Origin: Thermoplasmatota archaeon
Lineage (GTDB): Archaea; Thermoplasmatota; E2; DHVEG-1
Length of the DNA stretch: 64,000 nucleotides
NCBI GenBank assembly: GCA_016930995.1
Contig: JAFGFQ010000166.1
Location: 21,092-85,091, forward strand
Direction: 5' to 3'
Every line of letters begins with the position of its first letter. Position 1 is the stretch's first letter. The translations under genes were made by a program, and so were the position numbers. This document shows positions 44,989-52,595 of the stretch, one piece after another. The notes under the pieces are model-generated. The model searched no databases and was not told the origin of the DNA. It saw only the letters and a program-made list of their open reading frames with translations.

Positions 44989-46023
44989 ATGAAACCAATA
45001 ATTGTCTACCATGAAGATTACAATAAATATGACCTGGGGACCGATCATCCGCTTATTGGTGATAAACCGAAGAAAACCATATCGTTTTTAAAGGAGAAAA
45101 GCCTTATCACCGAGTTTCAGATCTTCACACCTAAAAAGGCAACGGAGGCTGATCTGCTCAGGGTTCATGATCCTGTCTATATCGAGCATGTGAAAAAACT
45201 CAGTGAGACTGGAGGATGGCTTTCTGAGGATACCCCCGCGCCGAAAGGGATTTTTGACATCGCAAGTCTTGCAACTGGTGGGAGTATATGTGCTGGGGAG
45301 AAGCTTTTCGAAGGCCACGACCTTGCAGTCAATCCACTCGGGGGTTTTCATCATGCAAGCAGAGGCCATTCCTCAGGGTTTTGTTTTTTTAACGATATCG
45401 CAGTAACCATAGAGCATCTCAGGAAAAAACAGAATGTCAAACGGTTCATGATTATCGATGTGGATGTCCATCATGGGAACGGAACGCAGGATATTTACAT
45501 TGACGATCGAACGGTTCTGAACCTATCGTTTCACCAGGATGGACGGACCTTGTACCCTGGCACAGGCCATATGGAAACCATCGGTCGAGAGGAGGCCGCT
45601 GGATACACGGTTAATCTCCCGTTTCCTCCAGGAACTGGGGGTGCAAGCTATCTGAAGGCCTTTAAAGAAATCGTTCCACCAATCGCAACGCAGTTCAAAC
45701 CAGAGGTTATCGTGTATCAATCCGGTGTGGATACTCATCATGCAGACCCGCTTGCGGACCTCAACCTCACCTATCAGACGTACTATCATCTTGCTACACA
45801 GGTCGCTGCGCTCTCCAAGGAGACCTGTCAGAGGCTTCTCGTACTGCTCGGAGGCGGTTACAACAGCATTGCCTGTATAAAATCCTATTATAACGTCTTC
45901 TGTGGTCTTGTCGAAAAACAAGAGTATCTGGAAGAAGAAGAAATCCCCGATTCCGATCCGTCTGCGGTGACACAGGTCGTCACCAGGTTAAAACACTCCT
46001 TAAGTGACTATTGGGCATTCTAA
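44989..46023 (+). CDS. histone deacetylase-superfamily enzyme (AcuC-like)
   Basis: A 344-residue zinc deacylase. It has the GGFHHAS segment, the zinc-binding DVDVHHGNGTQ motif (about residues 159-169), the second aspartate region SGVDTHHADPLAD and GGGYN near the end. The family covers acetyl-lysine deacetylases (AcuC), polyamine deacetylases and others. It is followed after 114 bp by a pyruvate:ferredoxin oxidoreductase gene and then by an acyl-CoA synthetase fused to an acetyltransferase, so a role in protein or metabolite deacetylation around acetyl-CoA is plausible. Confidence 0.88.
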   Translation: MKPIIVYHEDYNKYDLGTDHPLIGDKPKKTISFLKEKSLITEFQIFTPKKATEADLLRVHDPVYIEHVKKLSETGGWLSEDTPAPKGIFDIASLATGGSICAGEKLFEGHDLAVNPLGGFHHASRGHSSGFCFFNDIAVTIEHLRKKQNVKRFMIIDVDVHHGNGTQDIYIDDRTVLNLSFHQDGRTLYPGTGHMETIGREEAAGYTVNLPFPPGTGGASYLKAFKEIVPPIATQFKPEVIVYQSGVDTHHADPLADLNLTYQTYYHLATQVAALSKETCQRLLVLLGGGYNSIACIKSYYNVFCGLVEKQEYLEEEEIPDSDPSAVTQVVTRLKHSLSDYWAF

Positions 46024-46137
46024 CCGTGATTCTCCTGATAACCAAATCTTTATCTAGAGACCTCGGATACCGATTGATTGGTCTACGAATATAATTGTAA
46101 AATACAGATGAGATTGTCTTCTCATGAGGTGCTTTTC

Positions 46138-49689: not shown

Positions 49690-49805
49690 CCCTCCTGTCA
49701 TTTTATTTTTCTTTATCATATAAAAACGTAGCCGATATCATTATATAATGGATTCAACTTTCGGGGCATCGTTACTCTAAAGCTCACGATATGGAGGGAG
49801 ACATA

Positions 49806-52595
49806 ATGAATGGTGCAAAACTTGATAAAATCTTCAAACCAAAGAGTATCGCTGTTATCGGTGCAAGTGATACTATCGGCTCTGCGGGATTTAGGATTTT
49901 TCGAAACCTGATAGGCTCCGGTTATGAGGGAGTCGTATTCCCTGTGAACGCAAAACGGGAAAGTGTACAGGGGGTGCAAGCCTACCCTTCCATTAATGAC
50001 GTCCCCAAGGTTGTTGATTTAGCAATTATTGTGACACCTGCATCGGTTGTCTGCGACATTGTCGAACAATGCGGTATCCGGGGGGTTAAAGGAATCTTGA
50101 TTATCTCAGCGGGGTTCAAGGAGATCGGTCCTGAGGGGGTCGCCCGGGAACAACGCTTGCTTGATCTTAAGAAAAAATATGGGTTGAGTATTGTTGGTCC
50201 GAACTGTGTCGGTTTTATCATGCCGTTTTTGAATCTGAATGCGACCTTTGCTGGTGCCATGCCAGAGAGAGGATCAATTGCGCTGCTTTCCCAGAGTGGG
50301 GCGGTCTGTGGCGCGATCCTGGACTGGGCAGCGGCAGCCAAAGTCGGGTTCAGCTCGTTTGTCTCTGTTGGTTCGATGCTTGACGTTGATTTCGGCGATC
50401 TTATCGATTATTTCGGGATGGACATCCATACTCGCAGTATCGTGCTGTATATCGAGTCGATTACTGATGCGCGGAAGTTTATGAGCGCAACCAAAGCCTT
50501 CGCCCGTGCAAAGCCAATCATTGTGATTAAATCCGGACGCTATAAAGAAGGAGCAAAGGCAGCTTCCTCACATACGGGGGCGCTGGCTGGTGAGGATGTC
50601 ATTTATGAGGCTGCGTTCCGAAGATCTGGTGTTGTTCGTGTCATGGATATTATGGATTTATTCAATTGCAGCTCGATTCTTGCAAAACAACCTCGTCCGT
50701 TGGGTCCGAACATCGCAATTGTGACAAACGCAGGAGGTCCTGGTGTGCTTGCCACGGATTCGATTGTCGAGAAGGGTGGGAAACTTGCGACCCTGTCCCC
50801 TGAAACGATTGAGAAGCTCAACAAGGTCTTACCATCGCATTGGAGTCATGCTAACCCTGTCGATATCATCGGTGACGGTGATGAGGACCGTTATCAGAAA
50901 GCAATCGAAATCTGCCTTGAGGATAAGAACATCGATGGTTTGCTGATCCTCTGTGTCCCCCAGGTCATGGCGGACCCAAAGAAGCTTGCGGATCGTCTTG
51001 TGGATATCGCACGGAAATCAACCAAACCAATTCTAACGTCCCTTATCGGCGAGGCAAGTGTGTATCATGCAAGGGAAATCCTGAACCAGAATAACATCCC
51101 AACCTATGCATCCCCTGATGAAGCAGTGGAATCGTACATGTATCTGTATCATTATGAGCGTCACTTAGCTCAGCTCTACGAGACTCCGGAGGAATTGGAC
51201 ATTAAAACCCCAGCTCATTCTGAAATCATCAGAAAAATCCTGGATTTAGCTGCAAAGGAGAAAAGAACCTTGTTAAATGAGAGCGAGGCAAAAACTTTCC
51301 TGGAGTTGTACGGGATTCATACGACAAAACCGATTATTGCAGAAAACGAAGAAAAAGCAGTGAGAGCGGCAGAGAAAATCGGCTATCCTGTGGTTATGAA
51401 GATTCTATCCCCGCAGATTACCCATAAAAGCGATGTCGGGGGCGTGGTTCTTGATTTACGGTGCGGAGGCGATGTGAAAACAACGTTTCAAGCTATGACG
51501 AAACAGGCAAAAGAAAAGGCACCGCATGCGACGATTCAAGGAGTCACCGTCCAGAAACAGGTGAAGAACCATGGCTATGAACTGATCTTAGGTTCAAAGA
51601 AGGACCCGGTGTTCGGCTCGGTTGTCCTGTTTGGGCTTGGCGGCATCTACACCGAGCTGTTCAAGGATCGCGCAATTGGTTTTCCTCCTTTAAATCAGAC
51701 GTTAGCGCAGCGTATCATTGAGAAAACAAAGGCCTATGCGCTGTTGAAGGGATACAGGAACATTCCAGCAGTAGATATGAAGAAGGTGGAAGAAACAATG
51801 ATTAAGTTTTCCCAGATGCTCATTGACCATCCTGAGATAAAGGAAGTCGATATCAACCCGTTAATACCACAGGGAAACGATCTGATTGCGGTGGATGCAC
51901 GTATCATCCTTGATCTTGAGCCAGCAAAACATCCACATCTCATTATTACGCCGTACCCTACCAAATATATGAAACGCATCACGCTGAAGGATGGACAAAA
52001 AGTGCTCCTCCGGCCGATAAAACCAGAGGATGAGAACATGTGGTTGGAAATGTTCAAATCATTCTCCGAGGAGACGGTGCGGTTTCGCTTCTTCAGAATC
52101 ATCAAGGATACCCCCCATGAGGTTCGTACACGATACTGTAACATCGATTATGACCGGGAGATGGGCATTGTCGCTGAAGTGGAGAGAGACGGAAAAAAGC
52201 AGCTGCTTGGTGTTGCTCGATTGATTCAGGATCCAGCGCGTCCGGATGAGGCGGAGTTCGCTGTTGTGGTAACCGATGAGTATCAACGGCAGGGACTTGG
52301 ATCGGAATTCCTTGATTTCCTTATTGATTTTGCGAAAGATAAGGACCTGTCAAAAATCAACGGGATCGTCTTGAAGGACAATTACCCGATGATCACCTTA
52401 TGCCGGGAGAAAGGCTTCAAGTTCTCCGATGGTGACCCGGGTGAATACAAGGTGGAGTATGACCTTCTCCTTGATGAGGGGCTCAATGATGGGACCTTGG
52501 AGAGCGGGAAAAAAATCAACGATGAGAATGAATCAAATAATGGAAAAAAAACAAAAAAAAACCCTAAAAAACCGGTTCGATTGATAAAACCTTAA
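49806..52595 (+). CDS. acd: ADP-forming acyl/acetyl-CoA synthetase fused to GNAT domain
   Basis: Converts acetyl-CoA, ADP and phosphate to acetate, CoA and ATP, the energy-conserving end of archaeal fermentation. Residues about 5-130 bind CoA (IAVIGASD), 150-310 form the ligase part with the phospho-histidine loop SSHTGALAG, and about 470-705 are ATP-grasp (beta) with HKSDVGGVVL and EVDINPL. A GNAT acetyltransferase domain follows (about 720-895, acetyl-CoA loop YQRQGLGSEFL), then a Lys/Asn-rich tail. In the related bacterial Pat the synthetase part lacks the histidine; here it is kept, so activity is likely. GGAGGGAGAC precedes ATG 49806. Confidence 0.9.
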   Translation: MNGAKLDKIFKPKSIAVIGASDTIGSAGFRIFRNLIGSGYEGVVFPVNAKRESVQGVQAYPSINDVPKVVDLAIIVTPASVVCDIVEQCGIRGVKGILIISAGFKEIGPEGVAREQRLLDLKKKYGLSIVGPNCVGFIMPFLNLNATFAGAMPERGSIALLSQSGAVCGAILDWAAAAKVGFSSFVSVGSMLDVDFGDLIDYFGMDIHTRSIVLYIESITDARKFMSATKAFARAKPIIVIKSGRYKEGAKAASSHTGALAGEDVIYEAAFRRSGVVRVMDIMDLFNCSSILAKQPRPLGPNIAIVTNAGGPGVLATDSIVEKGGKLATLSPETIEKLNKVLPSHWSHANPVDIIGDGDEDRYQKAIEICLEDKNIDGLLILCVPQVMADPKKLADRLVDIARKSTKPILTSLIGEASVYHAREILNQNNIPTYASPDEAVESYMYLYHYERHLAQLYETPEELDIKTPAHSEIIRKILDLAAKEKRTLLNESEAKTFLELYGIHTTKPIIAENEEKAVRAAEKIGYPVVMKILSPQITHKSDVGGVVLDLRCGGDVKTTFQAMTKQAKEKAPHATIQGVTVQKQVKNHGYELILGSKKDPVFGSVVLFGLGGIYTELFKDRAIGFPPLNQTLAQRIIEKTKAYALLKGYRNIPAVDMKKVEETMIKFSQMLIDHPEIKEVDINPLIPQGNDLIAVDARIILDLEPAKHPHLIITPYPTKYMKRITLKDGQKVLLRPIKPEDENMWLEMFKSFSEETVRFRFFRIIKDTPHEVRTRYCNIDYDREMGIVAEVERDGKKQLLGVARLIQDPARPDEAEFAVVVTDEYQRQGLGSEFLDFLIDFAKDKDLSKINGIVLKDNYPMITLCREKGFKFSDGDPGEYKVEYDLLLDEGLNDGTLESGKKINDENESNNGKKTKKNPKKPVRLIKP

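Follow-up and report, generated by a model that had tools for sequence, protein, structure and literature searches.

A zinc deacetylase gene paired with an acyl-CoA synthetase–acetyltransferase fusion gene in one order of Thermoplasmatota: a putative archaeal switch on acetate metabolism

Why are a deacetylase, a pyruvate:ferredoxin oxidoreductase and an acyl-CoA synthetase with an acetyltransferase domain of its own encoded in a row in an archaeal genome? The locus lies on contig JAFGFQ010000166.1 (assembly GCA_016930995.1) of a Thermoplasmatota archaeon; "the window" means the whole analysed stretch of 64,000 nucleotides. As the original prediction had stated, three complete reading frames follow each other on the plus strand: an HDAC-family deacetylase of the zinc-dependent arginase-deacetylase fold (HDAC; 44989..46023, 344 amino acids, Pfam PF00850 with E 5e-87), a single-chain pyruvate:ferredoxin oxidoreductase (PFOR; 46138..49689, about 1183 amino acids, TIGR02176) and an ADP-forming acyl-CoA synthetase (ACD) with a C-terminal GNAT domain (ACD-GNAT; 49806..52595, 929 amino acids, by Pfam and by its match to PDB 9it0). 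That prediction took the three for an acetyl module with self-controlled acetate formation. Our comparison identifies the HDAC/ACD-GNAT pair, not the trio, as the conserved unit. We hold with moderate confidence that the two proteins would together carry out reversible lysine acetylation in acetyl-CoA metabolism, because their adjacency is kept, their co-occurrence is skewed, their catalytic residues are conserved and the GNAT domain can be aligned to protein acetyltransferases.

The comparison sample comprised 52 genomes of the window's order, with wider samples from the class (80 genomes, 28 of them outside the order) and the phylum (389 genomes). These genomes are mostly fragmentary and kin by descent, contigs are short, and assembly gaps affect absences. 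Both outer genes are present in 21 genomes of the order. HDAC immediately precedes ACD-GNAT, in the same orientation, in eleven of them (G007, G025, G026, G027, G028, G034, G036, G039, G042, G046 and G049), with gaps of 79-125 bp; in G036 the ACD-GNAT gene is split over two contigs. PFOR alone stands between the two genes in seven (G001, G002, G004, G005, G006, G008 and G009), and PFOR plus about 3.8 kb in G020. The pair is split in G003, and G010 is undecidable, since one contig stops where PFOR follows HDAC, and ACD-GNAT borders the end of a second contig.

The surroundings of the pair vary. Flanks, which are unannotated, were compared over 2 bp to 5.5 kb, and among the eleven direct pairs only that of G046 clearly has flanking genes in common with the window (an NMD3-like gene and, further away, pseudouridine-synthase and PFK genes). 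Matches of 28% identity in G026 and G028 to a repeat-type NosD-like gene at 60173 were not counted as common order. One downstream gene is common to G025, G026, G028 and G042, an upstream run to G027 and G042, and one upstream gene to G039 and G049. The contexts of the direct pair are several and not all independent, and its adjacency persists although gene order around it has changed in good part. In G043, a very near relative of G042 by its HDAC, a remnant of ACD-GNAT (45 codons, 84% identity; L012, 7205-7339) comes immediately after the HDAC gene, and no intact copy was found in that genome; judged from the remnant, this is a case of ACD-GNAT lost and HDAC kept.

How, then, did PFOR come to lie between the two? 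Its assignment as a single-chain enzyme is confirmed by a full-length match to NCBIfam TIGR02176 of 1933.6 bits (cut-off 911.35). The frame opens at TTG 46078, and the likely start is ATG 46138, which stands behind GAGGTG in the window and is alignable in 8/8 syntenic relatives compared. At E <= 1e-60 a PFOR match occurs in 39 of the 52 genomes, and G020 and the nearest relatives of the window are the only genomes in which it was found to separate the pair; in the eleven direct-pair genomes it lies on a different contig (nine) or gives no match at E 1e-60 (G028 and G042). In a tree of ACD-GNAT, made by a quick method and midpoint-rooted for drawing, the eight PFOR-between genomes form one clade with the window, G003 and G010 (SH-like approximate likelihood ratio test 96). 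Since a single insertion is the simplest account of this one-clade distribution, PFOR probably entered once, later, in the window's clade, direct adjacency of HDAC and ACD-GNAT being older. Pairwise identities of the three proteins over nine genomes correlate at 0.66-0.79 without L017, values by which the histories are not clearly separated.

By eye, PFOR also carries promoter-like and terminator-like signals of its own. A TATA-like box, AAATCTTTATCTA (46044..46056, plus strand), precedes it, and a similar stretch is seen at a similar place in seven close relatives (gap 111-115 bp). The gap between PFOR and ACD-GNAT holds, on the plus strand at 49701..49748, a T-rich stretch and then the TATA-like box TTATATAA (49741-49748); the T-rich stretch recurs in 8/8 relatives compared, and a TATATAA-type box in 7/8, L017 having the weaker ATTAAATA instead. 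Because these elements separate the genes, in relatives too, the three look unlike one operon. PFOR was rejected as a module part: it lies between the pair in one clade only, in the direct-pair genomes is on a different contig or gives no match, and has its own signals. Of the proposed module, the link between HDAC and ACD-GNAT thus stands (direct in 11/21 genomes, PFOR between in 7/21) and the gene order is not unique to the source genome; the trio is confined to one clade, for which reason PFOR, probably a lineage-specific insertion, has to be taken out of the interpretation.

What kind of protein is ACD-GNAT? The frame opens at 49791, and the likely start is ATG 49806 behind GGAGGGAG in the window, where relatives align. 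Pfam finds PF13380, PF13607, PF19045 and PF13549 followed by C-terminal PF13302/PF00583, and sequence comparison with the PDB ranks a full-length protein acetyltransferase first (9it0; 568 bits over query residues 5-872), so that the predicted ADP-forming synthetase with its own GNAT domain is borne out by domain layout and by a near end-to-end alignment. It is this alignment that likens the protein to Pat/PatZ (YfiQ) of Salmonella and E. coli. Type I GNATs have the same layout, and in the cited passages on them, Pat included, the synthetase part is inactive through a missing catalytic histidine (PMC8556138). ACD-GNAT, in contrast, keeps both catalytic histidines. The swinging-loop His256 (codon 50571..50573, plus strand; motif SHTGALAG, aligned with SHTGALMG of Nmar_0206, 8wzu) and the ATP-grasp His540 (codon 51423..51425, plus strand; THKSDVGG, aligned with IHKSDAGG of Nmar_0206) are each present in 23/24 rows, the remaining row being a gap in a fragment. 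Nmar_0206, a 4-hydroxybutyrate-CoA ligase of 698 amino acids, uses swinging-loop H256 and H535 in catalysis, as far as the cited passages go (PMC11494057). ACD domains and catalytic histidines are thus in common with ACD enzymes (8wzu, 4xyl), whereas 8wzu is without the GNAT part and aligns to residues 9-699 only. The 9it0 chain has no histidine within the aligned swinging-loop stretch. With CoA-binding, ligase and ATP-grasp parts and both phospho-accepting histidines predicted, ACD-GNAT has what defines an ACD and does not share the histidine loss by which the synthetase part of a type I GNAT is inactive; judged from its residues it is a Pat-like variant, with the layout of type I and no such inactivating change, and not Pat proper. 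Its ACD part probably catalyses and would be more than a sensor.

These residues bear directly on one alternative, in which the synthetase part, like that of Salmonella and E. coli Pat, is non-catalytic and serves only as an acetyl-CoA sensor, the two proteins then being a general lysine acetyltransferase and a general deacetylase. The shared layout and the full-length acetyltransferase as best PDB match would fit, as would a separate ACD-alpha-like match (36-39% identity) in 21/23 ACD-GNAT genomes that could serve metabolism (none is listed for G008 and G009). Against it, both histidines are kept in every row that reaches the site, and the Pat chain is without the swinging-loop histidine; such retention counts because the histidines should have been lost if activity were not under selection. 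We regard this alternative as quite unlikely.

The GNAT domain (PF13302; 52002..52421, plus strand) includes Glu817 (codon 52254-52256) and the acetyl-CoA P-loop QRQGLG. It could be aligned to 9it0, to the lysine acetyltransferase 4ava and to 4nxy, which agrees with the predicted role as a putative writer of acetyl marks. Glu817 is kept in 23/24 rows, the other being a gap, and the P-loop is mostly conserved, with Gln827 replaced by His in three rows; the equivalent glutamate is described as not strictly essential in Pat in the cited passages (PMC8556138). The AlphaFold2 model of the whole protein is poor (mean predicted local distance difference test score 63.1, predicted template modelling score 0.41). 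The fusion in itself is no novelty, because NCBI's label 'bifunctional acetate--CoA ligase family protein/GNAT family N-acetyltransferase' on some relatives already names both parts. ACD-GNAT is present in 23 of the 52 genomes. Scans outside the order used E cut-offs of 1e-120 and 1e-145 and, for the phylum, two candidates per genome; among the ACD matches listed for genomes outside the order in these two wider samples, none extends into the GNAT part, and they cover about 700 amino acids at 34-42% identity in frames that are sometimes longer than the match.

Is the deacetylase a plausible eraser? All 26 HDAC sequences have the zinc site and the catalytic His-His-Tyr, and all 26 have Leu as gatekeeper. 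The motifs are P-L-A at residues 254-256, LGGFHH and GGGY, and the polyamine-type signature (a PEG/Glu gatekeeper or PIS; RPPGHH/EGGY of bacterial enzymes) is absent from these positions; the polyamine-type enzyme that the original prediction had named as its counter-case is not indicated here. Like the classical deacylase clusters 1-5, HDAC has PF00850 and their active site (PMC11532494, in the passages cited, as for all cluster motifs here). AcuC cluster 2 has the foot-pocket motifs XGGLHH and (G/A)GGY, HDAC11/cluster 5 has GGGFHH, and clusters 1 and 4 have RPPXHH; LGGFHH/GGGY is nearest to cluster 2 or 5, Phe replacing the Leu of cluster 2 and fitting cluster 5 too. Of the AcuC-like deacetylase the family and the active site therefore hold, the motif fits HDAC11 as well, and the AcuC label is plausible. 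NCBIfam at E 0.001 gave no family. The predicted fold is good, and its structure matches are to HdaH-type enzymes and HDAC6; dimethoate and propanil hydrolases are also among the matches of HDAC. The structure matches cannot place HDAC in the AcuC cluster, and the cited passages report no crystals for a cluster 2 bacterial enzyme (PMC11532494). HDAC probably removes acetyl tags from proteins. Orthologues (E <= 1e-70, 56-81% identity) occur in 34/52 genomes of the order and, outside it, in G099 (54%) and G090 (51%) of the phylum sample, both without an ACD match in the phylum-sample scan. In these two genomes (L057 and L058, respectively) a gene of the creatininase family (PF02633) is at most about 1.1 kb away from the HDAC gene.

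The pair could instead be catabolic, HDAC releasing the acid from an N-acylated small molecule as an amidohydrolase, and the ACD part then activating or disposing of that acid, with GNAT a side function. HDAC-fold enzymes with small-molecule substrates exist, as the two hydrolases among the matches show; by the motif logic of PMC11532494 (cited in part) longer acyl groups may fit into the LGGFHH foot pocket; ACD-GNAT is followed, in the window and in several relatives, by a gene for an EamA-type transporter; and HDAC is found without ACD-GNAT in 13 genomes. The gatekeeper Leu and XGGXHH/GGGY, however, fit lysine deacylases over polyamine enzymes, the GNAT domain is no relic because its residues are strictly conserved, and the direct-pair genomes have few of their unannotated flanking genes in common, mutually or with the window. 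We consider a catabolic pair unlikely.

Do the two genes also travel together? HDAC is present in 21/23 genomes with ACD-GNAT vs 13/29 without it (Fisher p 0.0005, 52 genomes, kinship uncorrected). The two ACD-GNAT genomes without HDAC, G024 and G037, both have a sirtuin, which makes HDAC or sirtuin present in 23/23; seven genomes have neither, and ACD-GNAT occurs in 0/7 of these. Over all 52 genomes, five have both erasers, 29 HDAC only, 11 sirtuin only and seven neither (Fisher p 0.001, kinship uncorrected), a near-complementary pattern that may reflect eraser replacement. Across 19 genomes the identities of HDAC and ACD-GNAT have a correlation of 0.88, a value that would equally result from kinship alone. 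It is very improbable, in our estimate, that the two are neighbours merely through common ancestry in one order, with no functional link. The class and phylum samples show the pair in a single order only, and the genes look separately promoted, both of which would suit such an account; the adjacency, on the other hand, outlasts much of the surrounding gene order, and the co-occurrence is skewed.

What would the pair act on? In 42/52 genomes AMP-forming AcsA scores above the cut-off of its family, and the acetylation motif PKTRSGKI is present in 16/16 AcsA loci read, nine of them from ACD-GNAT genomes. The documented target of the type I layout in bacteria is AMP-forming Acs, and the cited passages supply bacterial precedents for the pair as a whole (PMC8556138, PMC13121692). 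Because the same layout acts on this enzyme, and these genomes encode it with the motif, we redirect the target to AcsA: AcsA or another acyl-CoA synthetase is a more likely target of the pair than ACD-GNAT itself. Self-controlled acetate formation found no direct support. On that account the GNAT domain acetylates its own or a separate ACD and HDAC reverses this; it draws on writer and synthetase being one chain with the eraser adjacent, and on the writer-target complex of Bacillus AcuA and AcsA as a precedent for proximity (PMC11910552, in part). It meets the difficulty that the synthetase part of bacterial proteins with this layout is described as acetyl-CoA-sensing and regulatory (PMC8556138), and that ACD catalysis uses histidines (PMC11494057), not a catalytic lysine blocked by acetylation as in AcsA, all as far as the cited passages go. 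We find it improbable.

On the preferred reading ACD-GNAT would be the writer, its GNAT domain acetylating a candidate target such as AcsA, and HDAC the eraser, taking the mark off and thereby restoring AcsA. We infer both substrates and the direction of control. Operation would be akin to bacterial Pat/CobB or AcuA/AcuC, with an ACD part that is probably an active enzyme beyond sensing, and by this analogy the pair suggests an archaeal counterpart of the bacterial on/off switch on acetate metabolism. The eraser of Pat is the sirtuin CobB, in contrast to the adjacent zinc HDAC of the archaeal pair, and AcuA is a GNAT without ACD fusion. In Bacillus, acuABC and acsA likewise encode a GNAT writer and a zinc deacetylase together, which control acetyl-CoA synthesis (PMC13121692, in part); acsA is there both neighbour and target. 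In the archaeal genomes, by contrast, writer and eraser are adjacent and AcsA lies elsewhere (on other contigs, contigs being short, except in G027, where it is about 7 kb off on the same contig). Haloferax volcanii has archaeal GNAT lysine acetyltransferases, Pat1 and Pat2, and the deacetylase homologues Sir2 and HdaI (PMC12607858, PMC12323606, both in part). Pat1 and Pat2, however, are single-domain GNATs without ACD fusion, a form common among archaeal homologues, and the passages of PMC12607858 do not describe linkage to a deacetylase gene.

Several observations weigh against this reading. AcsA is equally common with and without the pair (over cut-off in 18/23 genomes with ACD-GNAT and 24/29 without), which makes its presence permissive and not discriminating; co-occurrence as a means of identifying AcsA as target was uninformative. 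No AcsA is encoded in the window among frames of at least 500 amino acids. HDAC must have another job in the 13 genomes that have it without ACD-GNAT, because the partner is absent there. A second, class-II-like HDAC in 45/52 genomes (two copies read) could also erase. The TATA-like boxes before each gene speak against strict co-transcription, and the genomes are for the most part fragmentary and share descent. In G003, finally, HDAC-PFOR and ACD-GNAT lie on separate contigs with different neighbours. The break (C135 and C120; L043 and L044) falls exactly between PFOR and ACD-GNAT, as a real rearrangement or an assembly error. A lipoyl-synthase-like gene lies beyond PFOR in this genome, and hydrogenase-like genes, recognised by eye, lie upstream of ACD-GNAT.

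A more specific version, put forward tentatively as a possible but doubtful one, joins both activities in one polypeptide: the active ACD would make ATP from acetyl-CoA, while the GNAT domain would shut the opposing AMP-forming AcsA and HDAC would reopen it. If true, acetate excretion and uptake would be mutually exclusive through a single protein. The roles of lysine acetylation in archaea are poorly understood (PMC12607858, in part), and for one lineage the pair supplies a writer, an eraser and a candidate target that are specific and can be tested. How bacterial Pat originated is a further question on which it bears, given a Pat layout in which the synthetase part keeps its catalytic residues. 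No description of an adjacent archaeal HDAC/ACD-GNAT pair was found among the papers listed from the open-licence PMC literature, searched mostly at the level of titles and abstract starts.

The content of the window is archaeal, with GatD, GatE and NMD3 genes. The nearest relatives by ACD-GNAT protein are ten loci from metagenome-assembled genomes (76-91% identity, one genome scan), whose titles name Thermoplasmata/Thermoplasmatota, Euryarchaeota or an uncultured archaeon. A tRNA scan of the window was empty, and one partial tRNA lies at the window end. Two GatD-type genes are present: one (41203-42615, minus strand; NCBIfam GatD) adjoins GatE (42737-44659, plus strand), and the other (57904-59232, minus strand) is a separate paralogue present also in the relatives L002 and L006. 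The stop of this second gene is overlapped by four bases by an open reading frame of 106 amino acids (57587-57907, minus strand), which is without a Pfam match and by eye resembles the front half of a small GNAT, possibly a truncated acetyltransferase.

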